The notes under the pieces: model-generated
Database searches by the model: none
Seen by the model: the letters and a program-made list of their open reading frames with translations, nothing else
What the model was told of the DNA's origin: nothing
Shown here: positions 11,318-29,975 of the stretch, one piece after another
Numbering within the stretch: the first letter of the stretch is position 1
How the letters are laid out: each line of letters opens with the position of its first letter
Assembly: GCA_016200675.1 (NCBI GenBank)
Contig: JACQEH010000006.1
Coordinates: 1-43,133 of the forward strand
Direction of reading: 5' to 3'
Source of the DNA: Chloroflexota bacterium
GTDB taxonomy: Bacteria; Chloroflexota; Limnocylindria; Limnocylindrales; CSP1-4
DNA: 43,133 nucleotides
Position numbers and translations under genes: made by a program

Positions 11318-11435
11318 GTCCGCATTCGAGGACGACGAGGCGCGGGATCCGCCGACCAGCGACGGCGTCGCCGACGTGGGCCACACATGGGCCTCGACAG
11401 GGGACTCACGTTGGCGGCCCTGCGATGTCGGGCGG

Positions 11436-11447
11436 CCGCACGTGCGG
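11436..11447. promoter_or_regulatory. 12-bp perfect palindrome CCGCACGTGCGG in the non-coding gap upstream of the cupin-cyclase gene
   Basis: CCGCACGTGCGG is its own reverse complement; lies in a roughly 430-bp gap. Confidence 0.25.
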
Positions 11448-11681
11448 TCGTTCCGATCGGGCGAGCGTCGCAGCCCGTCGTGGCTGGTGCGACCGGCGCG
11501 CTGGTACCGAGAGGGGCCGGACCTTCAGGCCCGGGGCCGGCGATGCCAGAACGTCACCGCGCGGCGACTGCGCATGCCGCCGACGCCGGTAGCGCCGGTC
11601 CGATGGATGTCGCATCATCGCCGGCACGCCACCTGCAGCGGGGCCCCTCCCGACGCAGGCGCCGTGCATGAGGACCGACCG

Positions 11682-12542
11682 ATGGCCCGTCTCCAGGCCA
11701 AGGCGCTCGATCTCCCGGACGAGGTCCGGCCGACGCCGTTCGGGCGTGTCGACATCTACAACCTCGACGACCTGGTCATCGGACGGATGGTCTTCCAGCC
11801 CGGCTGGCACTGGATGGAGCACGTCCAGCCGATCGCGGGCACGAGCCTCTGCCAGTACCACCATGTCGGCGTCTGTATCAGCGGCCGGCTCGGGAATCGC
11901 CTCGAGGATGGCACGGTGCTCGAGATCGGCCCGGGCATGGTCTTCGAGATCCCGCCAGGCCACGACGGCTGGGTCATCGGCGACGAACCGTTCGTGGCCT
12001 ATGACGTGGCCGGCGTCCGGTCCTTCGCCCGGGTGGACCAGGCGACCCAGCGCATCCTCGGGACGATGCTCTTCACCGACATCGTCGACTCCACCGCTCT
12101 CGCCGAGTCGCTCGGACCGGCCGGCTGGCGGGAGCTCGTGGGAACGCATAACGAGCGCATTCAGTTCGAGCTCGATCGCTATCGCGGGCGGCTCGTCAAG
12201 ACGACCGGTGACGGCGTCCTGGCCATCTTCGATGGGGCGGAGCGGGCCGTCCGGGCCGCGGCGGCAATCTGCCTCGCGGCGAAGTCCCTGGGCCTCGCCA
12301 TCCGGGCCGGGATCCACACGGGCGAGGTCGAGATCGCCGCGGGCGATGTCCGGGGGCTGGCCGTGCACGTCGCCGCGCGGGTCATGGCCCAGGCCGGCCC
12401 GAGCCAGGTCCTCGTGTCGGCAACCACCCGGGAGCTTGTTGCCGACTCCGGACTGGCGTTCGTGGACGCGGGCAGCCACGAGCTGAAGGGGGTCTCGGGC
12501 GCGCGCCAGCTCTACCGCCTCGCGGCGGCTCCGACGGGCTGA
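11682..12542 (+). CDS. Cupin-domain protein fused to a class III adenylate/guanylate cyclase catalytic domain
   Basis: From MARLQAKALDLPDEV: cupin-like VFQPGWHWMEHVQPIAGTSLCQYHHVGVCISGRL...LEIGPGMVFEIPPGHDGWV, then cyclase motifs LFTDIVDSTALAESLG, TTGDGVLAIFD, IRAGIHTGEVE, VHVAARVMA. AGGA precedes the ATG; upstream part of the track ORF looks non-coding. Confidence 0.88.
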   Translation: MARLQAKALDLPDEVRPTPFGRVDIYNLDDLVIGRMVFQPGWHWMEHVQPIAGTSLCQYHHVGVCISGRLGNRLEDGTVLEIGPGMVFEIPPGHDGWVIGDEPFVAYDVAGVRSFARVDQATQRILGTMLFTDIVDSTALAESLGPAGWRELVGTHNERIQFELDRYRGRLVKTTGDGVLAIFDGAERAVRAAAAICLAAKSLGLAIRAGIHTGEVEIAAGDVRGLAVHVAARVMAQAGPSQVLVSATTRELVADSGLAFVDAGSHELKGVSGARQLYRLAAAPTG

Positions 12543-14481: not shown

Positions 14482-14596
14482 CGTGGCGCTCGGGGGCCGT
14501 CGTGGACGATGGGTTCGCGGCGGCCGCCGGGCGTCGTTCCGACGCCTCCAGGGCCCGGAATCCGGTGTCGCCTTCGTCATCGCCAAGGGGAGGTGG

Positions 14597-14669
14597 AGCG
14601 GGAGACGGGGTTCGAACCCGCGACATTCAGCTTGGGAAGCTGACACTCTGCCAACTGAGTTACTCCCGC
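14597..14669 (-). tRNA. tRNA-Gly (anticodon CCC)
   Basis: Minus strand folds as a cloverleaf: GCGGGAG TA ACTC AGTTGGCA GAGT G TCAGC TTCCCAA GCTGA ATGTC GCGGG TTCGAAC CCCGT CTCCCGC T. Anticodon loop TT-CCC-AA; discriminator U as expected for bacterial Gly. Confidence 0.95.
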
Positions 14670-14733: not shown

Positions 14734-15234
14734 CTACTCGCCCATCACCGTGACGTGCACCGTGCGGTCGCGCGGACGTGTCCCGTCGAAGTCGACGAAG
14801 TAGATCCGCCCGAACTCGCCCAGCTCCATCGCGCCGTCGTTGACCGGGATCGTCTCGGAGCGGCCGATCAGCCCGGAGCGGATGTGGGCGTCGGTGTTGA
14901 GGCTCCACCAGGCCTCCTCGCCGAGGTTGCCCGTGGCGTGGGCGATGTGGAGCGGGCCCGGGTGCATGTACTGGCCTTCATGGCGACAGGTCGGGGCGAC
15001 CATCTCGAGGCGGTCGAGCATGTCCTGGAGCAGGAACTCGGTCCCGTCGAAGGTCCGGTCGTGCGACGCCTCCTGGATGATGACCGAGCAGGTGGTGTGC
15101 TGCGAGTAGACCGTGACCGTGCCGGCCCTGATGCCCGATGCCGACACCGCGGCGGCCGCCTCGGCGGTGACGTCGTGGAAGGTCGGCTTGCGGAGGGGAC
15201 TGCTGACGCTGACGACAACGTGGTGGACGGTCAT
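14734..15234 (-). CDS. yjbQ: YjbQ/UPF0047 family protein (secondary thiamine-phosphate synthase-like)
   Basis: TVTVYSQHTTCSVIIQEA, HEGQYMHPGPLHIAHATGNLGEEAWWSLN, LGEFGRIYFVDFDGTRPRDRTVHVTVMGE are typical of the family. Confidence 0.88.
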   Translation of the reverse strand: MTVHHVVVSVSSPLRKPTFHDVTAEAAAAVSASGIRAGTVTVYSQHTTCSVIIQEASHDRTFDGTEFLLQDMLDRLEMVAPTCRHEGQYMHPGPLHIAHATGNLGEEAWWSLNTDAHIRSGLIGRSETIPVNDGAMELGEFGRIYFVDFDGTRPRDRTVHVTVMGE

Positions 15235-15259
15235 GAGAGGTCCTTTCGCTCGCCGGTGT

Positions 15260-15988
15260 TCACGCCTGCCGATCGGGATGGAGGTCCTGCCAGGTGCGGG
15301 CGGTTGCCTCGAGCATCGCCCGCAGCATCGCCACGGGGTCGGCGGCCCTGAGGACGCCGCTCGACGAGCCGGTTCCGTCCAGGCCCAGCCGCATCACGGT
15401 CTCGACGTCGGCGGGGCCGTTCACGCCGGCCCCGCTCATCACGAGGATCCGGGGGTCGACACCCTTGACGGCCGCCACGGCCTCGGCCACGAACCCGGCC
15501 ATGACGCTGCCGACGGAGCGGCCGCTGGCGATGAGCTCCGGGGGCTCGGCCAGGACGATGTCCGGGCCGAGGCGGGCGAACGCCTCCGCCTCGGCGGGCG
15601 AGTCGGCAAAGACGAGGGTCGCCAGGCCGGCCGCCCGGGCCCGCTCAATGGACGCCTCGAGCTCGGCCGGCGACAGCCGCCGCTCGGAGTGGTTGAGGAG
15701 CGTGCCCACGGCTCCGGCCTCCCGGACCGCCTCGGCCAGCACCGCCCCGACGCCGCGCCCGGGCGGGAGGGCGTCGACATGCTGGGCGAAGACGAGGATT
15801 CGGCTCGTCGCCGCGGCCACGGCGGGGATGTCCACGGCCTGGGGATCGAAGACGATCGAGACGTCGAGCTCCACGGCCAGCCGGTCAGCGGCCACGGCGA
15901 GGCGGACCGCGGCGGCCCCCCAGGCGTAGCCCTTCAGGCCGACCTCGAAGACGGGCGGCCGGATTCGGGGCCTGGGCTCGGCGCTCAG
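15260..15988 (-). CDS. Triose-phosphate isomerase family protein (LerI/TpiA-like sugar-phosphate isomerase)
   Basis: FEVGLKGYAWG (catalytic Lys), TLLNHSERR (catalytic His), VLAEPPELIA (catalytic Glu), GAGVNGPADVETVMRLGLDGTGSSSGVL (phosphate loop). No ATG/GTG/TTG at the expected N-terminus; CTG at 15988 overlaps the upstream stop as CTGA. The 502-aa track ORF upstream is the isomerase gene read out of frame. Confidence 0.85.
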   Translation of the reverse strand: MSAEPRPRIRPPVFEVGLKGYAWGAAAVRLAVAADRLAVELDVSIVFDPQAVDIPAVAAATSRILVFAQHVDALPPGRGVGAVLAEAVREAGAVGTLLNHSERRLSPAELEASIERARAAGLATLVFADSPAEAEAFARLGPDIVLAEPPELIASGRSVGSVMAGFVAEAVAAVKGVDPRILVMSGAGVNGPADVETVMRLGLDGTGSSSGVLRAADPVAMLRAMLEATARTWQDLHPDRQA

Positions 15989-17155
15989 ACGACCACCGCC
16001 TCGATCCCCAGCATCGCGGCCAGGTGCAGGAGCTGGGCGGTCCACCGACCCCGGGCGGCGCCCATGTGGTGGGTGGCGCCGGCCCGGAGCCAGGCGTCGC
16101 ACCAGTCGGCGATCTTCAGCGTGTCGTGGCGGAAGAGGGTCTGGGGCGCCGAGATCGCACGCGGCGGGAAGGGCAGCAGCTCGCCCTCGCTGATGACGAA
16201 GCGCCAGCGATTGCCGCCCACGGTCACGAGGGCCAGGTTGGTGATGGGTCCCGGCTCGTAGGCGAACTCGAAGCCGGCGCCGAAGCCGTGGACGCCCTTG
16301 TAGTAGATGGAGTGCTTGACCTTGACCGCACCCGGGGTCCCCATCGCCGGGTTGCCGTGGCCGTCGTGGGAGAACATCACCGCGTTCGTGTCGTAGTCGA
16401 CGACGTAGTTCTCGAGGGTCGTGGCCTGGCCGGCAAGCTCCTGCATGACCAGCTGTGCCACCGCGGTGTTCACGTCGCCCTCGGGCGAGGCCGGGATCCC
16501 GATCTCGCACAGGCGCCCGGTCCCGTAGCTGGGGATGATCCCGACCCGCGGATCCGTGAGCCAGACCTGGTCGAAGGCCGTGAACGCGTCGAACCGATGC
16601 TCCCGGACCACGGCCTCGAGGGCGAGGGCAAGGCGGCACGACCGCTCGAAGAGGGCGGGCTCCATCTCGACCGCATAGCGTGCCCGTTCGGCGGCCATGA
16701 GCCGGTCGACATCGGCCTGCGGGGTCTCGCCCATGCGGACGGCGACCTTCTCCGGCTCGAGGGGCCACGTCACCGGGCCGATGGACTCGCGCATCGAGAG
16801 GCCGTCGAACATGAGGTCCGTCATGCCCTCGAAGTGGTGGCCGACGAGGGCCACGCGGGCCTCCCGGAGCCGCCGCCGGACGGCCGCGGCCTGGATCACC
16901 TCGCGGACGCGGCGGCGTCCATCGGGGTCGTCGAAGGTGGAGGTCACGATCGCGAACTGGCGGCCCGTCCGGATGAGGACCGCGGTCAGCTCCGGCATGC
17001 CGGCCATGCCGGAGTTGAGCATGACGACATCGAAGCCGTCGTCCTCACCGAGGCGCCGCGGCGGCCGTCGCGGCCGGGCGCATGTGGGCGGTCTTGTTGT
17101 AGTCGTCCTCCAGCAGCGCCATCACCAGGACGCCGATCTTCGCCGTCGTTGTCAC
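15985..17155 (-). pseudogene. L-arabinose/L-fucose isomerase-like protein, split by an apparent +1 frameshift near 17049-17065
   Basis: N-terminus VTTTAKIGVLVMALLEDDYNKTAHMRPAATAAAA (GTG at 17155) is in the frame of ORF 17045..17401; the rest LGEDDGFDVVMLNSGMAGMPELTAVLIRTGRQ... is in the frame of ORF 15985..17022. Dropping one C in GCGCCTCGGTGAGGAC restores a continuous frame. Body has EGDVNTAVAQLVMQELAGQATTLENYVVDYDTNAVMFSHDGHGNPAM, as in the isomerase fold family. Could be intact if the indel is a sequencing error. Confidence 0.75.
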
Positions 17156-17207
17156 CTGCCGCTCTCCCTTGCTCCGTTCGCTGGTGTGCCTCGGTTGGTG
17201 TGCTCCG

Positions 17208-18731
17208 TCATCCCGGCCCCGCGGCCCGTTCGAACTCGGGGCGGAGTGCCTCGAACAGGCGGACGTAGCGGTGGTACGCGTCGTCGTAGGCCGGCCCGTT
17301 CGCGGGCCCGGGCTCGAATCGGTCACGGGTGGACACGAGCGCGGCTTCGGCTTCGGCCAGGTCTCGAAACGCACCAACGGCCACGCCCGCCAGCATGGCA
17401 TCGCCGCGGACCGCCGCGTCCTCGCCCTCGAGGGTCACGATCGGCAGGCCGCATACGTCCGCCTTGACCTGGTTCCACAGCCGGCTCCGCGCGCCGCCAC
17501 CATTGGAGCGGATCTCGGTCGCGGTCGCGCCAGCTTGGGCCAGGAGCTCGACGTTGCGACGGAGCATGAAGGCCACCGCTTCCAGGATCGCCAGGGCGAA
17601 GTGCCCGCGGGTGTGGGCGAGGGTGAAGCCCGCGAACACGCCGCGGGCGGCCGGCACGTACTCGGGACTGAAGGCACCGGCGAGGTGCGGCAGCATCGTC
17701 AGGCCCTCGCAGCCCGGCGGCACCGCCGCCGCGAACGCGGTGAGTCCCTCGTAGCTGCCGGATCCCCCCGGCCCGTGCGATTCGCCGGACCCGAGTTGGT
17801 CCCGGAACCAGGTGAGAGCCATCCCGCCGGTCGGACAGACCGGGCAATAAAGATAGGTGCCCGGGGCGGAGTGGACGTAGACCGGCGTCCGCCGCGTGGG
17901 ATCGCCGCCGTGGTGGTCGACGGCCGCCTGGATCGTGAGCGCTCCGCCGGTGCTCTCGGAGATCATCCCGCCGGCGATGTTGCCCACGCCCACCGCGCCG
18001 GCGCCCTGGTCCATGCCTCCCGCGACCACCGGCAGCCCGGCGCGGAGCCCGAGGGCCTCGGCCGCGTCGGCCTGGAGCGTGCCCACGATCGTGCCGGGCG
18101 CGGCGAGCTCGGGCAGCCGCTCCGGCCCCACGCCGACCGCCTCGAGCATCGGCGCCCACCAATCCCCCGAGCGGATGTCGAGGAGCATGGTCGTGCACTG
18201 GATCGAGCCGTCGGTCACGAAGCGGCCGGTCAGCCGGCGCAGCACGAAGTCCTCGGCCAGCACGAACCGGTGGGCGCTTCGGAACAGGTCCGGCTCGTGG
18301 CGTCGCCACCAGAGGAGCTTCGGGGCCGTCCACGTCGGGTTGACGTCGGGCACGCCGGTCCGGTCGTAGACGTCGGTGGTGCCGAACCGTTCCGCCAGCT
18401 CGCGGGCCTCGGCGGCAGCCCGGTTGTCGAGCCAGACGAGGGCCGGTGCGAGCGCCCGTCCCCGACCGTCGACGGCGGCGACGGTCTCACCCTGGCTGGA
18501 GACGCCGATCGCCGCGATCGCCGCTCGTTCGACGCCGGCTGTCGAGAGCAGCTCGCGGACGGCCGACAGCGCCGCGGTCCACCACGTCTCGGGGTCGATC
18601 TCGACGCGGTCGGGCACGGGATGGACCAGCCGGTACTCCCGCCCGGCCCCGGCGATCCGGCTGCCCGCGGCGTCGTAGAGGCCGGCCTTGACCGACGTCG
18701 TGCCGATGTCGAGGCCGAGGAGGAGCGTCAT
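17208..18731 (-). CDS. FGGY-family carbohydrate kinase
   Basis: MTLLLGLDIGTTSVKAGLYDAAGS..., ALVWLDNRAAAEA, VVAGGMDQGAGAVGVGNIAGGMISESTGGAL, RSNGGGARSRLWNQVKADVCGLPIVTLEGEDAAVRGDAMLAGVAVG. Internal start MTLLLG at 18731 preferred over the track start. Confidence 0.93.
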   Translation of the reverse strand: MTLLLGLDIGTTSVKAGLYDAAGSRIAGAGREYRLVHPVPDRVEIDPETWWTAALSAVRELLSTAGVERAAIAAIGVSSQGETVAAVDGRGRALAPALVWLDNRAAAEARELAERFGTTDVYDRTGVPDVNPTWTAPKLLWWRRHEPDLFRSAHRFVLAEDFVLRRLTGRFVTDGSIQCTTMLLDIRSGDWWAPMLEAVGVGPERLPELAAPGTIVGTLQADAAEALGLRAGLPVVAGGMDQGAGAVGVGNIAGGMISESTGGALTIQAAVDHHGGDPTRRTPVYVHSAPGTYLYCPVCPTGGMALTWFRDQLGSGESHGPGGSGSYEGLTAFAAAVPPGCEGLTMLPHLAGAFSPEYVPAARGVFAGFTLAHTRGHFALAILEAVAFMLRRNVELLAQAGATATEIRSNGGGARSRLWNQVKADVCGLPIVTLEGEDAAVRGDAMLAGVAVGAFRDLAEAEAALVSTRDRFEPGPANGPAYDDAYHRYVRLFEALRPEFERAAGPG

Positions 18732-18744
18732 GGCGCCGCCGGCG

Positions 18745-19560
18745 CTACGCGAGCCCGTGCGTGGCGGCCGCGGCCGCCGGATCGGCGCCTCGCTTGACGA
18801 CGTCCTGGAGGGCGGCCATGAAGCGCACCGGGTCCACCGCCCCGACGAGATTGCGGCCGAACACGACGCCGCGCGCGCCATCCCGGATGGCCGTCGCCGC
18901 GAGCTCGAGGGCATCGACCTCGTGCGGCAGCTTCTTCGCCCCCAGGGCGAGGACGGGCACGGGCGTGGAGCGAACGATCTCGGCGAAGCGTTCGCCCGTG
19001 TGGAACGTCTTGACGAGGTCGACGCCGAGCTCCGCGACGATCCGACAGCCGATCGAGATCACCTCGTGGCGCTCCTCGGGCGAGACGTCCTCGTGGCCGG
19101 CCGGGTAGACCTCGCCGACGATCGGGACGCCGGCTGATCGCGCCTCGTCCACGCAGCGAGCGACCATGGCCACGTTCTCGGCGTCCACGGCCTCCGAGCC
19201 GGTCTTGATGGACATCCCGACGAGGACGATGTCGGCCCCGAGAGTGATGGCGCCCGCCGCCGAGATCATGGGCACGCTCCGGCTCTCGCGATAGCCCCAC
19301 TGGGTGGCGTACTGGGTGCCCCAGTTGAGGCGGACGAGCATCGCCGGAGCGCCGCGGCGACTGAACGCCGACGCGAGGTGGGGTGCCATGCCGGGGCTGA
19401 GGAGGATCGCGTCGGCGCCGGTCAACAGGCCGATGACCGAGGAGAGGTCCTCGAAGCCGGGCCGTGGGCCGTTGTAGAGACCGTGGTCGATGGCGGCCAC
19501 GACCGCATTCGAGCCGCCGTCGAAGAGTCGTGCCAACCGGATCTGGCCGCCGGAACCCAC
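18745..19560 (-). CDS. LsrF/DhnA-like class I aldolase
   Basis: AAIDHGLYNGPRPGFEDLSSV (LsrF-like), GVDLVKTFHTGERFAEIV (Schiff-base Lys), VLALGAKKLPHEVDALELAATAIRDGARGVVFGRNL. GTG at 19560 is preceded by GGAGG-CGATCCC (strong SD); upstream part of track ORF is intergenic. Confidence 0.88.
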   Translation of the reverse strand: MGSGGQIRLARLFDGGSNAVVAAIDHGLYNGPRPGFEDLSSVIGLLTGADAILLSPGMAPHLASAFSRRGAPAMLVRLNWGTQYATQWGYRESRSVPMISAAGAITLGADIVLVGMSIKTGSEAVDAENVAMVARCVDEARSAGVPIVGEVYPAGHEDVSPEERHEVISIGCRIVAELGVDLVKTFHTGERFAEIVRSTPVPVLALGAKKLPHEVDALELAATAIRDGARGVVFGRNLVGAVDPVRFMAALQDVVKRGADPAAAAATHGLA

Positions 19561-19643
19561 GGGATCGCCTCCAGGTCGATGGCCCCGCGGCGGTCCGATG
19601 GGCCGGCCGGCGACGCCGGGAAGGTGTTCGGATTGATGCTCAT

Positions 19644-19671
19644 ATGCTATGCGGAACGTGCCGAGTGTCAA
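19644..19671 (-). promoter_or_regulatory. Candidate sigma-70 promoter for the catabolic (minus-strand) arm
   Basis: Minus strand TTGACA (19666-19671) - 16 nt - TAGCAT (19644-19649). Confidence 0.55.
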
Positions 19672-19684
19672 GGCACACGCGTTT

Positions 19685-19700
19685 GTATCGACCTCGATAC
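19685..19700. promoter_or_regulatory. Inverted repeat GTATCGA-CC-TCGATAC: candidate regulator operator between the divergent arms
   Basis: Perfect 7-bp arms, 2-bp spacer, in the divergent intergenic region of the sugar locus. Confidence 0.45.
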
Positions 19701-19744
19701 TGCATGTTTCGCGCATGAGCCACCACATTCGTGCAGGAACCATC

Positions 19745-19774
19745 TTGCGATCGGTCGTCGAATCGGCGTACGAT
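19745..19774 (+). promoter_or_regulatory. Weak candidate promoter for the transporter arm
   Basis: TTGCGA (19745-19750) - 18 nt - TACGAT (19769-19774). Confidence 0.3.
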
Positions 19775-19911
19775 CCTGCAGATGCCGCTCCCCGTGGGGG
19801 CGGCGTGCTGGCGACCCGCTCGCGGGTCCGCTCGAGTGCAGCGCCCAAGGCCGGACGCTCGGGCGCCAGGAGGCCCGCGGCAGGATGCACGCCGGAAAGG
19901 AGACAGGGACT

Positions 19912-21261
19912 TTGAACCGAAAGTTGCTTGCGTTCGCAGCGACCCTGGCGATCGTGGGGGCTGCCTGCGGCAGCGCGTCGTCGCCGTCACCGGCCGCCAC
20001 GGCCGCCGGTTCGCAGCCCGTGACGAGCGCCAGTCCCACCACGGCCGCGCCCGTGACGCTGACCCTCTGGCACAACTACGGGACCGAGGCCAACGCCAAG
20101 GTCACCGACGCGTTGGTCAAGGCCTACACGACCGCGAACCCCAACGTCACGATCAACGTCGTCAGCCAGCCGGCCGACAACTACTTCGCGCTCCTCAAGA
20201 CGGCGGCGATCGCGGGCTCGGGCCCGGACCTGATGACGATGTGGACGGGCCTCTTCGCCCTCCAGAACCAGGGCTACCTGGAGCCGCTCAACTCCTATAT
20301 CCCGACCGCCACGCTCAAGAAGTTCACCGGCATCGACTGGTGCTCGAAGGGCCTGTCGCTCGACCAGGGCGCCATCTGCGTGACGCTCGACATGCAGCAC
20401 TACAACGGCTTCTACAACAAGGACCTCTTCGCCCAGGCCGGGATCACGACGTTCCCGACGAACTGGGACGAGTTCATGGCGGCCAGCGCGAAGCTCAAGG
20501 CCAAGGGCATCCTGCCGCTGGCCTACGGCACGGGCGGCCAGGCGCTCAACGCCGGCTTCTACCCCTACTACGACCTCAGCTACCTGATGATGTACCTGCC
20601 GGTCGCAGACTGGCAGAAGCTCTACAGCGGCAAGCTGCCCTGGACGGATCCGGCGATCGTGGCCCAGCTGAAGAAGTGGGGCTCCCTCAAGACGCAGGGG
20701 TACACCAACTCGGACGTCCTGACCAACACAGATTCGGTCGCCCAGTTCGAGGCCGGCAAGGCCGCCATGACCCTCGAGGGCTCGTGGGACTTCAAGGAAT
20801 TCCACGACAAGATGGGCGACAAGGTGGGCGTCTTCGTCCCGCCCTTCACCGACACCCAGGCCAAGGGCGTCGTCGAGTTCCCCGGCGACGGCTTCGGCGT
20901 GACGAGCTACTCCAAGCACAAGGCGGACGCCGCCGCGTTCCTGGCCTGGCTCGTGACCCCCGACGCCCAGAAGATCATCGCCGACGGCGGCCTGATCCCG
21001 GTCGTCGCCGGGCAGGCGGCGTCCGAGCCACTCGCCAACGCGATGCTCGACTTCGCGGCCAAGCAGGGCTACACCCGCTACCCGATGATCGACAACGTCC
21101 TCCAGCCCGAGGTCACCGACGTGGCGACCAAGGTCCTCAACGCCATCCTCGCCGGGACGATGAGCGCCGAGGATGCGACCAAGGCCATGGCCAACGCGCT
21201 GAGCCAGTTGCCCGCCGATCGGCGCGGCGACACGTACACGGCACCTGCCGCGGGCGGGTGA
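19912..21261 (+). CDS. Extracellular sugar-binding lipoprotein (ABC family 1, CUT1 type)
   Basis: TTG start preceded by AGGAG; LNRKLLAFAATLAIVGAACGS lipobox; VTLTLWHNYGTEANAKVTDALVKAYTTANPNVTINVV; AAFLAWLVTPDAQKIIADGGLIPVV. Confidence 0.9.
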   Translation: MNRKLLAFAATLAIVGAACGSASSPSPAATAAGSQPVTSASPTTAAPVTLTLWHNYGTEANAKVTDALVKAYTTANPNVTINVVSQPADNYFALLKTAAIAGSGPDLMTMWTGLFALQNQGYLEPLNSYIPTATLKKFTGIDWCSKGLSLDQGAICVTLDMQHYNGFYNKDLFAQAGITTFPTNWDEFMAASAKLKAKGILPLAYGTGGQALNAGFYPYYDLSYLMMYLPVADWQKLYSGKLPWTDPAIVAQLKKWGSLKTQGYTNSDVLTNTDSVAQFEAGKAAMTLEGSWDFKEFHDKMGDKVGVFVPPFTDTQAKGVVEFPGDGFGVTSYSKHKADAAAFLAWLVTPDAQKIIADGGLIPVVAGQAASEPLANAMLDFAAKQGYTRYPMIDNVLQPEVTDVATKVLNAILAGTMSAEDATKAMANALSQLPADRRGDTYTAPAAGG

Positions 21262-21270
21262 TCGACTTCG

Positions 21271-21299
21271 GTCGGCGGCGGACCACGTCCGCCGCCGAC
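21271..21299 (+). repeat. Perfect 13-bp intercistronic hairpin between binding-protein and permease genes
   Basis: GTCGGCGGCGGAC-CAC-GTCCGCCGCCGAC. Confidence 0.85.
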
Positions 21300-21313
21300 A
21301 TCCGGGCGACCTC

Positions 21314-22252
21314 ATGACCACCTCGTCGCCGCTTGCCGGCGCCCCGGCAACCGCGCTGCCGGGGCGATCACGGCCGCGCCCGGGCCGGCTCCGGGCCGGG
21401 CAGCGGCGGGCGGGCCTTGCCTTCGCCCTGCCCGTGATCGTCCTCGAAGTGCTCTTCCTCCTGATCCCGATCGCCCAGGCGGCCTACTTCAGCTTCACCC
21501 GCTGGGACGGCATCACTGCCAGCTGGATCGGGCCGGCCAACTACCAGCGCCTCTTCGGCGACCCGACCTTCTGGCGGGTCATGGCCAACAACCTCCTCCT
21601 CCTGGCCTCCGTGCCGCTGGCGATCCTGATCCCGCTCCTGGTCGCCTACCTCCTCAACGAGCACGTCCCGGGCTGGCGCTTCTTCCGGTCCGCCTACTTC
21701 CTGCCGACCGCCATCTCGTGGGTCGTCATCGGCATGGTCGCCCTTCGCGTCTTCGCCCGCGAGGGCCTCCTCAACCACCTGCTCGACGCGGTCGGGCTGG
21801 GGTTCATCCATACGGACATGCTGGCCGGAGAGCTGTCGGCGATGGAAGCCGTGGCCATCACCTTCATCTGGTCCGTCTTCGGCACCAACACGATCATCTT
21901 CATCACCGGCATGGCGACCCTCGACCGGGAGGTCTACGAGGCCGCCCGCGTCGATGGCGCGGGGGCCTTCACGACGTTCGTGAAGATCACCATCCCGATG
22001 CTGATGCGCTTCATCCAGTTCGCCTTCATCCTGACCCTCATCACGGCCTTCACGGCCCTCTTCAGCCTGATCTTCGTGATGACCGGGGGCGGGCCCGGGT
22101 ACGGCACGACGACCCTCGAGTTCTACGTCTACCAGCAGGGCTTCCAGGTCGGCGTGTTCGGCTATGCGGCGGCGATCGGGATCGTCCTCTTTGCGATCGT
22201 CTTCGCCATCAGCCTCGCCCAGCTGCGGATCTTCCGCAGCCGGCTCGACTAG
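21314..22252 (+). CDS. Sugar ABC transporter permease (MalF-like)
   Basis: Multi-TM; VIVLEVLFLLIPIAQAAYFSFTRWDG; EAA-type loop YEAARVDGAGAFTTFVKITIPMLMR. Confidence 0.92.
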   Translation: MTTSSPLAGAPATALPGRSRPRPGRLRAGQRRAGLAFALPVIVLEVLFLLIPIAQAAYFSFTRWDGITASWIGPANYQRLFGDPTFWRVMANNLLLLASVPLAILIPLLVAYLLNEHVPGWRFFRSAYFLPTAISWVVIGMVALRVFAREGLLNHLLDAVGLGFIHTDMLAGELSAMEAVAITFIWSVFGTNTIIFITGMATLDREVYEAARVDGAGAFTTFVKITIPMLMRFIQFAFILTLITAFTALFSLIFVMTGGGPGYGTTTLEFYVYQQGFQVGVFGYAAAIGIVLFAIVFAISLAQLRIFRSRLD

Positions 22253-22261
22253 GGCCGGGCG

Positions 22262-23080
22262 ATGGGCATCGCCCGGCGACGGGTCGGCCGCGGCCTCATC
22301 TTCCTGGTCCTATGCCTGGTCGTCGTGATCATGCTGTTCCCGTTCCTGTTCATGGTCCTCACGGCCTTCCGGTCCCGGGACCAGTACCTGACCGGACAGG
22401 GCTTCTCGCTCGACAGCTGGCGCGAGCTGTTCAAGTTCCTGCCGGTCGTGCAGGAGCTGATCAACTCCGCGGTCGTGACCGGCGGTGCGGTCCTCCTGAT
22501 CATCGCCGTCAGCACCACCGGGGGGTTCGCCTTCGCGAAGCTCGGCTTCCGCGGCTCCGGCTTCGTCTTCCTCGGGATCCTGGCCGGAATGATGATCCCG
22601 ATGCAGTCGATCATCATCCCCGAGTTCGTGAACATCGCCCGGGTCCTCCACCTCAACAACCAGTACCTCGGGGCGATCCTCGTCTACGCCGCGCTCGGGG
22701 CACCGTTCGCGACCTACCTCATGACGACCTACTACCGGGGCGTCCCAACGGAGCTCGTGGAGGCCTCGGTGATGGACGGGGCGTCCTACTGGCAGGTCTT
22801 CCGGAAGGTGATGCTGCCCCTCAGCATCCCGGCCATCACGACGGTCGCGGTGCTCCAGTTCATCCAGGTCTGGGACGATCTGCTGGTGGGCCTCCTCTTC
22901 CTCAACGAGCCGCACGTCCGGACGATCACCGTGGGGCTGGCCGTGATCCAGACCGGCCGCGTGGTCAACGTCCCGGCGCTCATGGCCGGTTCCCTGCTGT
23001 CCGCACTGCCGGCGATCCTCGTCTACCTGATCTTCCAGCGGAACCTCATCCAGGGGCTGACGATGGGCGTCAACAAGTGA
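22262..23080 (+). CDS. Sugar ABC transporter permease (MalG-like)
   Basis: Multi-TM; EAA loop LVEASVMDGASYWQVFRKVMLPLSIPAITTVAVLQFIQVWDDLLVGLLFL. Confidence 0.92.
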   Translation: MGIARRRVGRGLIFLVLCLVVVIMLFPFLFMVLTAFRSRDQYLTGQGFSLDSWRELFKFLPVVQELINSAVVTGGAVLLIIAVSTTGGFAFAKLGFRGSGFVFLGILAGMMIPMQSIIIPEFVNIARVLHLNNQYLGAILVYAALGAPFATYLMTTYYRGVPTELVEASVMDGASYWQVFRKVMLPLSIPAITTVAVLQFIQVWDDLLVGLLFLNEPHVRTITVGLAVIQTGRVVNVPALMAGSLLSALPAILVYLIFQRNLIQGLTMGVNK

Positions 23081-23889
23081 GCCTCGCGATGGGCGTCGGG
23101 ACGGCGGCGTGGGGCCTGCCCGCGCACGAGCGGCGTGAGCAGATCGCCCGTCTGGTCGAGGAGGCCCAGCGCGTCAGCGTGGCCGACCTGACGGCCCGCT
23201 TCGGGGTCACCGATGCCTCGATCCGGCGCGACCTGATCCTGCTCGAGGCGGCCGCCAGGCTGCGACGGGTCCACGGAGGCGCGGTGAGCCACGGGGCCAG
23301 ACTGGCGGCCGGCGCCTACTCGACCAAGCTCCGGATCAACCGGGAGGAGAAGACCCGGATCGGCCTGGCGGCCGCCCGCCTCGTCCAGCCGGGCGAGGTG
23401 GTCCTGTTCGACTCCGGCACCACGGTCGCCCAGGTCGCGGCCCAGATGCCGGCCGTCCTGCGGGCCCCGAACGCGATCACGGCCGTGACCTACTCGCTGC
23501 CCGTCATCGACGAGATCGGGGGCTGGGAGGCCCCCCACCTCGTGGTGGTGGGCGGCCTCTACCTGCCCGAGTACCGGGCCTTCGTCGGCCCCCAGGCGAT
23601 CGACGGCCTGCGGGATCTGACCGCGGACGTGATCTTCCTGGGCTGCGACGGGCTGACCGTCGAATCGGGCCTGACGACCCCCCACGTGCTCGTCGCCGAG
23701 GTCGGCGCCGCCGCCACGTCCCGCTCGCGGCGTGTCGTTGCGGTCGCCGACTCGTCCAAGATCGGGCGCCAGGGGTTCAAGCCCATCGTCGCCCTGTCCG
23801 ACGTGCACGTGCTGATCACCGATACCGCGGCGGATCCAGGCCGTGTCGCCGAGATCCGGGCGGCCGGCGTCGAGGTCGTCCTCGCGTGA
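23077..23889 (+). CDS. DeoR/GlpR-family transcriptional regulator
   Basis: ERREQIARLVEEAQRVSVADLTARFGVTDASIRRDLILLEAAARLRRVHGGAV; FDSGTTVAQVAAQMP. GTG at 23077 overlaps the permease stop (GTGA). Track ORF upstream part is out-of-frame permease sequence. Confidence 0.92.
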   Translation: MSLAMGVGTAAWGLPAHERREQIARLVEEAQRVSVADLTARFGVTDASIRRDLILLEAAARLRRVHGGAVSHGARLAAGAYSTKLRINREEKTRIGLAAARLVQPGEVVLFDSGTTVAQVAAQMPAVLRAPNAITAVTYSLPVIDEIGGWEAPHLVVVGGLYLPEYRAFVGPQAIDGLRDLTADVIFLGCDGLTVESGLTTPHVLVAEVGAAATSRSRRVVAVADSSKIGRQGFKPIVALSDVHVLITDTAADPGRVAEIRAAGVEVVLA

Positions 23890-23896
23890 GGGCGCC

Positions 23897-24904
23897 GTGA
23901 ACGCCGTCCGGGCGTTCGCCACGACCTGGCGCGGCCTGGATGCGCTGGCCCTCGAGAATGCGAGGCTGCGGGTCACGGTGGTGCCATCGATGGGCGGCCA
24001 CGTCGCCGAGTTCGTCGACCGCGCCGCGGATCGCGACCTCCTGTGGCACAACCCCCGATCCACGCCCCGGCCGGCACCGTATGGCGCCCACTTCGACGAC
24101 TGGTGGTCGGGCGGCCTTGACGAGATCTTCCCGAGCGGTGACGCCGGCCGGCTCCACGGCGAGCCGCTCCCGAACATGGGCGAGCTGTGGTGCGTGCCGT
24201 GGGAGGCTGCGCCGATCGCTTCTGTGGACGGCCGCGAGGCGTCGATCCTCGGCGTGGCGTTCGGGACCGTCGCGGCAGCCCGGTTCGAACGGCGATTGAC
24301 GCTCGGCGCCGACACGCCGGTCCTGCGGGCCCACTATCGGATCGAGAACCTCGACGTCCGGCCCCTGCCGTTCACCTGGGGAATCCATCCGGCCTTCGCG
24401 GTCGGTCCGGCGCATCGACTCGATCATCCGGGCACTCGGATGCTGGTGGGGACATCATCGTCCCCCGAACTCGGCAGCGAGGGCCTCGCCTACGACTGGC
24501 CGTTGATGCCGGATCCCACGCTCCCGGGCGGGCGCGATGTCTCGGCCGTCCGTGGCCGTGACGCCGCCGTGTTCGGCGGCCACTGGGTGACCGACCTCGC
24601 CGAGGGCTGGCTGGCGCTGACGGACACCTCCACGCGTCGGGGTGTGGCGATCGCTTTCGACCGGGAGATCTTCCCGGTCGCCTGGCTGTGGCAGGTCTAC
24701 GGCGGCTGGCGGGGTCACCAGCACGTGGCCCCCGAGCCCTGGACCAGCCTGCCCATGGACCTCGACGGCGCGATCGCCGCCGGCCGGGCTCGCAGCCTGG
24801 CGCCCGGCGAGATCCTGGAGACCGAGGTCGCCTTCGCCCTCCATGCCGGCCTCAGACGCGTGACACGGGTCGAGCGGACGGCCGAGTCGATCGTCGTCGG
24901 CTGA
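23897..24904 (+). CDS. Galactose-mutarotase-like (aldose 1-epimerase fold) protein
   Basis: LENARLRVTVVPSMGGHVAEFVDRAADRDLLWHNP, FTWGIHPAFAVGPAHRL, FPVAWLWQVYGGWRGH; GTG start 23897. Confidence 0.8.
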   Translation: MNAVRAFATTWRGLDALALENARLRVTVVPSMGGHVAEFVDRAADRDLLWHNPRSTPRPAPYGAHFDDWWSGGLDEIFPSGDAGRLHGEPLPNMGELWCVPWEAAPIASVDGREASILGVAFGTVAAARFERRLTLGADTPVLRAHYRIENLDVRPLPFTWGIHPAFAVGPAHRLDHPGTRMLVGTSSSPELGSEGLAYDWPLMPDPTLPGGRDVSAVRGRDAAVFGGHWVTDLAEGWLALTDTSTRRGVAIAFDREIFPVAWLWQVYGGWRGHQHVAPEPWTSLPMDLDGAIAAGRARSLAPGEILETEVAFALHAGLRRVTRVERTAESIVVG

Positions 24905-27545: not shown

Positions 27546-29975
27546 GTGAAACCACGACGTCACCTCAACCGGCCGCCCGTCCCCGGCGGCGCCCATCTCG
27601 GCCTGCGGCGATCGTTGGCGATCCCCATGATCGTCGCGCTCCTGCTGGCGCTGCTCTCGGTCGCCCCGGCCGCGGCAACCTCGACCACGATGGCGCCTGC
27701 CTGCGACGGGATCAACATCCGGACCGCAGCTTCGACTAGCGCGACCGTGGTCGTGAGGCTCGGTCCGGCCGTCACCGTCACGGTGACCGGCACGGTCGCC
27801 GGCGGAAGCTGGGCCGCGAGCTGTCCGACGGCCAAGGCGGGATCCACCTGGTACACCGTCTCGGCGATCAACGGGACGGCCGCGGCGACGCTCTACGGGG
27901 CCTCGATCGTCTATGCCGCGACCGGCGTCCTCACGAGCCCGGCCGCACCCGCGGGGGCGGCGGCCACGGCGGCTTCGGCCGTCGCGGCGACCGCGACGCC
28001 GGCAGCACCGGCTGCGCCGTCCACGCCGCCGGCAGCACCCACTGCGCCGTCGCCCGCGCCGCCGGCTGCCGGCGCGACCGCCCTGGCCCCGGCCTGCGAC
28101 GGCGTCAACATCCGGAAGTCGCCCTCGACGGCGGCCACCGCCGTCGTCCGCCTGGGCGTGACCGCGAAGCTGACCGGGACCGGGACCGTCACCGGCGGTG
28201 CCTGGAGCGCGACCTGCCCGACATCGAAGTCGGGCTCCACCTGGTTCGCCATCACGGCGGTCAACGGGACCGCCGTCGCCTCGATCTACGGAGCGACAGT
28301 GGTGTATGCGGCGACCGGCGTAATGAACGTTCAGCCAGCGTCGCCGACGGCCGCGACCCAGCCGCCGCCCGCGACCCCGACGAGCGCACCGCCGGCCGCG
28401 GCGGCTGCCACCCCGACCCCGGCGCCCGTCGCCGCGAGCCCCACGCCCGTCGCGACGAACCCCATCGCCGGCGCGTCATCGGCCCCGACCGGCCAATCGC
28501 TCGTGCCGGCCTGCGACGGCGTCAACATCCGGGCGACGGCCTCGACCAGTGCGGCCGTGATCGCCAAGGTGGGGCTGGCAACCACGCTGGTGGTGTCGGG
28601 GACGACGACCGGCAGCACCTGGAGCACCACCTGCCCCACCGCCAAGTCGGGTTCCGGCTGGTACGTCGTGACGCACATCAACGGAGCAACCGTTCAGGCA
28701 CTGTTCGGTGTCCCGTCGCTGTACGCGGCGGTCGGCGTCCTGACGGCGCCCGCACCACCCGCGGCGCCCGCCGCGACGACCGTGACGCTCGGCTCGGCGA
28801 CCACCTTCTACGGCCGCGGCTACGGGCACGGCGTCGGCCTCTCCCAGTACGGCGCCCGCGGGCGCGCCCTCGCCGGGCAGACCGCGGCCCAGATCCTGGC
28901 CCGCTATTACGCGGGGACCACGATCGGCACGATCCCGTCGGGAAGCACGATCCGCGTCCTGGTCCTCGACACCTTTGCGGCGTCGGCGACCGCTCCCCTG
29001 ACGATCGCCGGTCGTGGCGGAGCGTGGAGCGTGAGCGGCATCGGGAGGACCTTCCCGGCCGATGCGATCCTTCGCCTGGCGCCCGCGACCGCCAGCCCGA
29101 CGGGCTGGCAGGTGACGGTCAGGGATGCCTCGGGCGCGGTCCTCTCCGACGGCCCCGCACCCCTCGGGGCGACGGTGGCCGGGACGTCGGAGGCGACGAC
29201 CCTCCAGCTCGTGTCGAAGCCGACGAACTACGACCTCTTCCGGGGCGTCCTCCGCTGGTCCCTCTCGGGCTCGACGGCCACCGTCGTCAACGAGCTGCCG
29301 CTGGAGACCTATCTCCGGGGGGTCGTGCCATCCGAGATGCCGAGCTCGTGGCCGGCGGACGCGCGCCTCGCCCAGACGATCGCCTCGCGCTCGTTCGCCG
29401 CCTACCGTCTCCGTCCCGGAACCGGCACCTTCGACCTCTACGACGACACCCGCTCGCAGGTCTACCGCGGCGTCCACGCCGAGACGGCGGTGAGCGACGC
29501 CACGATCGCGGCATCGGCGAACCAGGTGCTTCGCAGCGGGACGGCCCTCGTCAATGCCCTCTTCCACTCGACCGCCGGCGGCGCGACCGAGAACAACGAG
29601 AACGTCTTCGTCTCGGCGTCCGGTGCCCGCACGGCCGGGGTCGTCGCCTACCTCCGGGGTTCGCTGGATCGTGACTCGGCCGGCGTGTCCTATGACGCAG
29701 CCGCGCCCTATGCCACGTGGCAGACGGGCACCTACGGCATCGCCCAGCTGTCGTCCATCTTCGGCGCCGACAGCCGGACGGCCGTCGGAACTCTGACCGC
29801 CATCGACCTCTCGAACCGGGGTGTCTCGGGACGGCTGATCAGCGTCACCCTGACGGGCTCCGGCGGATTCAGGACCGTCTCGGGCCAGGTCTTCGTCGAC
29901 GTCTTCAACGCCAATCGACCGAGCGGCGACCTGCCCCTCCGGAGCACCCTCGTCGGCCTCGCCCCGATCCCCTGA
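27546..29975 (+). CDS. Secreted SpoIID/LytB-domain protein with three N-terminal SH3-like repeats
   Basis: Three repeats of type (A/V)PACDG(I/V)NIR...CPTxKxGSTWY...; SpoIID-like [38 protein letters not shown] and [39 protein letters not shown]. Confidence 0.9.
27693..28743 (+). repeat. Three SH3-like protein repeats (about 27693-27932, 28082-28323, 28499-28743) with Ala/Pro-rich linkers
   Basis: [23 protein letters not shown] / [23 protein letters not shown] / [23 protein letters not shown]. Confidence 0.85.

Follow-up and report, generated by a model that had tools for sequence, protein, structure and literature searches.

The pathways for L-fucose and L-rhamnose in E. coli (FucIKA and RhaBAD) share a common logic in which an isomerase, an FGGY kinase and an aldolase act in succession, with a mutarotase as a further component. 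EryH/TpiA2, described as a tetrulose-phosphate isomerase (PMC5992420), is a second triose-phosphate isomerase (TIM) encoded in a sugar operon alongside an FGGY kinase and a DeoR regulator, and an FGGY kinase (LsrK) is combined with a DhnA-family enzyme (LsrF) in the Lsr system for autoinducer 2 (AI-2). Here a stretch of 43,133 nucleotides (the window), contig C33 (JACQEH010000006.1) of the Chloroflexota assembly GCA_016200675.1, was analyzed; the assembly is a metagenome-assembled genome (MAG) of high GC content, 81.6% complete and in 278 contigs. The window contains a divergent, two-armed cluster of ten genes that follows the fucose/rhamnose logic yet scores below the membership cut-offs for those pathways and for the L-arabinose and Lsr pathways. 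The cluster is real and conserved, and its enzyme types are familiar; no description of this gene set, or of such a combination, was found in the literature searched.

All ten genes lie where an earlier note on this DNA, made from the sequence alone, had placed them, and each is matched by Pfam or NCBIfam models, weakly so for the mutarotase-like protein. Proceeding outward from the shared intergenic region, the minus arm encodes the aldolase, FGGY kinase, isomerase, TIM-like enzyme and YjbQ, and the plus arm the binding protein, permease 1, permease 2, DeoR regulator and mutarotase-like protein. The features are:

14734..15234, minus strand: YjbQ/UPF0047 protein (PF01894, 1e-27; TIGR00149 above cut-off)
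15260..15985, minus strand: archaeal-type TIM-like isomerase (NF003302/PRK04302, 193.7 bits; cut-off 132)
15985..17155, minus strand: L-arabinose-isomerase-fold sugar isomerase gene, interrupted (PF11762, 5.9e-12)
17208..18731, minus strand: FGGY carbohydrate kinase (PF00370, 4e-60; PF02782, 6e-28)
18745..19560, minus strand: DhnA/DeoC-type class I aldolase (PF01791, DeoC/LacD family, 6.8e-20; PRK07226, 151.9 bits)
19626..19638, minus strand: candidate operator CATCAATCCGAAC, between the two arms (suggestive)
19912..21261, plus strand: CUT1-type sugar-binding lipoprotein (PF01547, 7.6e-34)
21314..22252, plus strand: ABC permease 1 (PF00528; UgpA-like, 97 bits against a cut-off of 335)
22262..23080, plus strand: ABC permease 2 (PF00528)
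23089..23889, plus strand: DeoR-family regulator (PF00455, 7e-41; PF08220)
23897..24904, plus strand: aldose-epimerase/DUF4432-like protein, probable mutarotase (PF14486, 8e-7; PF01263, 6e-5)

These family assignments support the earlier description of a sugar locus that joins an isomerase, a kinase and a class I aldolase of the DhnA type to a CUT1 importer. In line with the accompanying view, the tests run assigned the locus to no known pathway. The proposed mutarotase-like protein retains weak matches to the DUF4432 and Aldose_epim families, both under the curated Pfam cut-offs. Relative to FucIKA and RhaBAD, the class II FucA or RhaD is replaced by a class I aldolase of the DhnA type, and the locus differs further in its AraA-fold isomerase, its TIM-like and YjbQ module, its ABC importer and its DeoR regulator. 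No class II (zinc) ketose-1-phosphate aldolase was found in the locus with Pfam, the sole aldolase being of the DeoC/LacD class I type.

The same divergent arrangement was found in seven relatives in a 301-genome sample of the phylum, labeled Chloroflexi, Candidatus Limnocylindrales or Candidatus Dormiibacterota; one of these loci (L028) is cut by a contig end, one (L025) stops before YjbQ and one (L029) is without TIM and YjbQ. Judged from this conservation, the gene arrangement is far beyond chance. Neighborhoods were compared across genomes, as the earlier note had proposed. A scan with the isomerase alignment over a genome collection at species level gave 37 loci, and 34 of them hold genes for the aldolase, the FGGY kinase and the isomerase together. 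The carriers of this core are Chloroflexota (Limnocylindria-like, Dormibacterota-labeled and Anaerolineae), two Syntrophaceae and one Thiobacillaceae contig of 3.4 kb that may be contamination. The isomerases of the Anaerolineae and Syntrophaceae loci are about 60% identical, and the importer in these loci is mostly exchanged for an SBP_bac_6/PhnS-type system. Since the same enzymes accompany a different importer, the constant part of the cluster lies in its enzymes rather than in its importer. DeoR is retained in the Limnocylindria-like and Anaerolineae loci, and most Limnocylindria-like loci also keep the mutarotase-like gene with the cluster. In L024 (1314-3523), L025 and L029, genes for an SDR dehydrogenase and a further class III aminotransferase are inserted between the DeoR and mutarotase genes, and cupin and SMP-30 lactonase genes are also present in L024 and L037.

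Two further proteins often join the Anaerolineae and Syntrophaceae loci. One, a conserved 490-residue protein whose gene is flanked by those for the ABC ATPase and the binding protein (L065:3760-5226, L058, L059, L061 and L062), is confined to Anaerolineae; it had no Pfam or NCBIfam match and its structure model was poor, with a predicted local distance difference test score (pLDDT) of 56.5. The other is a GHMP kinase (L063:783-1823), divergent to the cluster in both groups, for which the best PDB match was AbGHMP (9ulx, 5e-45).

In a 400-genome sample of the phylum the isomerase was present in 11 genomes, all of the same family as the source of the window, and was not found in any of five genomes of the same genus; the cluster is therefore patchy. 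No further carrier was found among 297 genomes searched in the phylum of the Syntrophaceae genome, so that horizontal acquisition or a binning error is possible for that genome.

The kinase reached no NCBIfam equivalog. The closest was XylB, with 351 bits just under the cut-off of 380; scores with FucK, RhaB and LsrK were 179, 72 and 227 bits against cut-offs of 471, 528 and 528. In a tree the cluster kinases were separate from the E. coli FGGY kinases, with long branches and weakly supported forks, and the tree offered no clear characterized partner.

The aldolase probably starts at the GTG at 19560, preceded by GGAGG, which gives a protein of 271 residues; the open reading frame considered earlier extended further upstream. 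Its orthologues form a group of their own, with 71-78% identity in the family (about 70-77% for the seven relatives) and other matches at no more than 38% across the 301 genomes. The model for 2-amino-3,7-dideoxy-D-threo-hept-6-ulosonate (ADTH) synthase (PRK07226) ranked first, followed by LsrF and archaeal fructose-bisphosphate (FBP) aldolase. The LsrF equivalog scored 129 bits against a cut-off of 297, and all other equivalogs were far under their cut-offs. The nearest solved structure in the PDB is MJ0400 (2qjg), so that ADTH synthase and archaeal class I FBP aldolase are the closest relatives by family and structure and share the same Lys, although the cluster enzyme is encoded in a sugar-import operon and remains under the equivalog cut-offs. 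The Lys in VKTFxTG and the Tyr in EVYP are invariant in ten homologues, and the GRN phosphate motif is invariant as well. In class I FBP aldolases this Tyr is catalytic, and in the alignment it is retained by the cluster enzyme and missing from E. coli LsrF. The cluster aldolase thus has the features of a class I DhnA-type enzyme, a Schiff-base Lys and a general acid/base Tyr. Because Lys, Tyr and GRN are kept and LsrF lacks the Tyr, aldol cleavage of the type yielding dihydroxyacetone phosphate (DHAP) is favored over LsrF-type chemistry. At 29% identity to E. coli LsrF, the enzyme stands no nearer to that protein than to other aldolases of the DhnA type. The emphasis on LsrF in the earlier note is therefore weak, LsrF being one of several distant relatives.

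The isomerase gene is frame-broken. Its N-terminal part, KIGVLVMALLEDDYNKTAHMRP, begins with a GTG at 17155 (fragment 17059-17155) and is out of frame with the long open 3' part (15985-17058). Relative to the intact gene of L033, approximately 218 nucleotides are absent at about 17047-17062. A search of the whole assembly recovered only family positions 105-462 and no second copy. The frames are open in the ten other carriers of the 400-genome sample, and intact homologues in relatives have about 462 residues. The pathway is therefore not complete in this assembly, contrary to the earlier description of the locus, and here is either decaying or mis-assembled; in a fragmented MAG rich in GC, the lesion may have arisen in assembly. 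An AlphaFold model of the intact homologue from L063 (pLDDT 82.8) matched L-arabinose isomerases best, at 17-21% identity and template-modeling scores of up to 0.88, with L-fucose isomerases ranking behind them. Residues E306, E333, H350 and H450, the metal ligands of E. coli AraA, are all kept in intact homologues, and the corresponding E298, E321, H336 and H436 are invariant in 19 isomerase sequences. The modeled fold and the four ligands in intact homologues place the cluster isomerase in the L-arabinose isomerase superfamily. It differs from AraA in its low identity and in genomic context, with no AraD and the aldolase following instead. The AraA equivalog (NF002795) gave 49 bits against a cut-off of 622, scored on the interrupted window copy that lacks the N-terminus, and the model for the sulfoquinovose isomerase SftI (NF048012) gave 41 bits against 700 for the window isomerase.

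The assignment of the fourth enzyme to the TIM family stands and is refined to the archaeal-type subfamily, since the protein passes the PRK04302 cut-off and scores under that of the bacterial model TIGR00419. Its start codon is uncertain and may be a CTG that overlaps the stop of the isomerase gene (CTGA). In all of the approximately 30 distinct copies aligned the NxK motif reads GLK or GPK, or SVK in L056, the catalytic Asn being replaced by Gly and in one case by Ser, with Lys, His and Glu retained. A full-strength canonical TIM is encoded elsewhere in 12 of the 14 carrier genomes checked, including G000. Plain triose-phosphate isomerisation, proposed earlier as the final step, is therefore doubtful, and by these sequence features simple exchange of DHAP and glyceraldehyde 3-phosphate is most likely not the role of the cluster enzyme. 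A TIM paralogue in an erythritol-type locus of R. leguminosarum reads TSWKMN, with Asn likewise changed to Ser. EryH resembles the cluster enzyme in this replacement by a small residue, whereas it derives from a bacterial TIM and the cluster enzyme from the archaeal-type subfamily.

YjbQ had been passed over as a bystander, yet it is tied to the TIM-like gene in every locus that has both. The gap between the two is 0-98 nucleotides in 25 of 25 such loci, including those in which the pair is relocated (L041, L042 and L056), and both are absent together from L044, L048, L053 and L055, each with at least 5 kb of downstream sequence. In L048 (10421-13622), L053 and L055 three genes fill their place, one for a zinc dehydrogenase, one for a class III aminotransferase and one for a HAD phosphatase; the last of these also adjoins YjbQ in L035, L036, L037 and L066. 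The strict adjacency and joint absence suggest that the TIM-like enzyme and YjbQ form a functional module dedicated to a phosphorylated product.

The nearest PDB relatives of the binding protein are binders of oligosaccharides and sugars. Naming the substrate from this protein was rejected, since the structural relatives bind many sugars. The sequence CGTCAATCCGAAC, with up to two mismatches, recurs 5' of the aldolase gene, in the window (as a CRTCAATCCGAAC-like site) and in roughly a dozen other loci; by estimate, a random 400-base region would hold about 0.01 such site with two mismatches. This candidate site may be the DeoR operator, an argument weakened because the loci are related to each other. 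Two DeoR genes in tandem, both resembling the window regulator, are present in L038 (1011-2779).

Taken together, the locus is probably one divergent regulon for import and degradation of a monosaccharide or small glycoside, with a DHAP-yielding aldolase and a TIM-YjbQ module. The sugar would be imported by the CUT1 system, subjected to mutarotation and converted from aldose to ketose by the AraA-fold metal isomerase. The FGGY kinase would phosphorylate the ketose, probably at C1, and the class I Schiff-base DhnA-type aldolase would split the ketose-1-phosphate by retro-aldol cleavage into DHAP and an aldehyde. The TIM-like enzyme and YjbQ would act on a phosphorylated product or intermediate, and DeoR would control the regulon. 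We infer all of these reactions and their order; the observations are the gene content, its conservation, the protein families, the catalytic residues and the TIM-YjbQ coupling. Several points weigh against the proposed regulon. With XylB as its best model the kinase could act at C5, the isomerase is broken in the genome of the window, and the loss of Asn might lower TIM activity instead of altering it. In two Anaerolineae genomes (G303 and G304) the cluster enzyme is the sole TIM seen, which could be explained by genome incompleteness.

A simple analogue of the L-fucose and L-rhamnose pathways, with an ordinary TIM drawing DHAP into glycolysis and YjbQ incidental, would accord with the PRK04302 score, with the retained Lys, His, Glu and phosphate-binding region and with DHAP as the expected aldolase product; the loss of Asn from all distinct copies aligned, the canonical TIM encoded apart from the cluster in 12 of the 14 carriers and the strict coupling to YjbQ make it unlikely. 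The cluster in this genome might instead be a decaying remnant, or in the course of being lost, with no working pathway. The deletion of about 218 nucleotides is not a multiple of three, no second isomerase was found in the assembly, and none of the five same-genus genomes searched has the gene; against this, the other nine genes are open, and so short a deletion may stem from faulty assembly of 71% GC sequence in a fragmented MAG. Decay is considered less likely than not, although to be taken seriously.

A tetrose route, in which erythrulose phosphate arises through the isomerase and kinase, the TIM-like enzyme works as a tetrulose-phosphate isomerase of the LerI/EryH type supplying erythrose-4-phosphate, and the aldolase either splits or forms erythrulose-1-phosphate or sedoheptulose bisphosphate, is judged improbable. 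It would explain the replacement of Asn by a small residue as in EryH, another ery locus has fba and fbp, and the chemistry is established in an engineered cycle in which DHAP aldolases make erythrulose-1-phosphate that is isomerised by LerI/DerI (PMC10733421). However, a tetritol dehydrogenase, EryB, EryC and EryI (RpiB) are not among the recurrent, conserved cluster genes, the known AraA-fold isomerases act on pentoses and hexoses, and the likeness to EryH amounts to one residue across distant TIM subfamilies. It is also quite unlikely, if conceivable, that the locus encodes a natural sugar pathway coupling a DHAP-type class I aldolase to a TIM-derived tetrulose- or pentulose-phosphate isomerase, with YjbQ as a sugar-phosphate enzyme. 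Lsr-like processing of AI-2 or its precursor 4,5-dihydroxy-2,3-pentanedione is suggested by the pairing of the FGGY kinase with a DhnA-family aldolase, the feature common to both systems. It is nevertheless very improbable: the LsrK and LsrF cut-offs were both missed, no LsrG-type gene was seen among the annotated cluster genes, the importer is of the CUT1 and not the LsrB/CUT2 type, and an AraA-fold isomerase would have no role there. The aldolase itself, with its Lys and Tyr and no special closeness to LsrF, argues against an AI-2 role.

In an empty-site comparison the flanks of the cluster were not conserved in sister genomes. In the window a tRNA-Gly (CCC) gene (14594-14669, minus strand) lies directly 3' of YjbQ, at the edge of the patchy cluster. 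Further out, translation of the open reading frame at 11376-12542 suggests a cupin-like N-terminal part followed by an adenylate/guanylate-cyclase-like domain, and that of a large one at 27546-29975, judged by eye, suggests a series of repeated SH3-like segments ahead of a SpoIID-like region.

The proposed regulon defines a testable pathway in the poorly cultured Chloroflexota, with several enzymes less than 40% identical to their nearest characterized relatives. UPF0047 is listed as a family of unknown function in a review that mentions it (PMC7954711), and a TIM-like isomerase without the catalytic Asn, strictly paired with YjbQ, provides a concrete lead on its function. If true, the reading that joins the TIM-like enzyme, the aldolase and YjbQ would amount to a natural counterpart of some of the engineered erythrulose-monophosphate chemistry, and the widespread orphan family YjbQ/UPF0047 would gain a role in metabolism.

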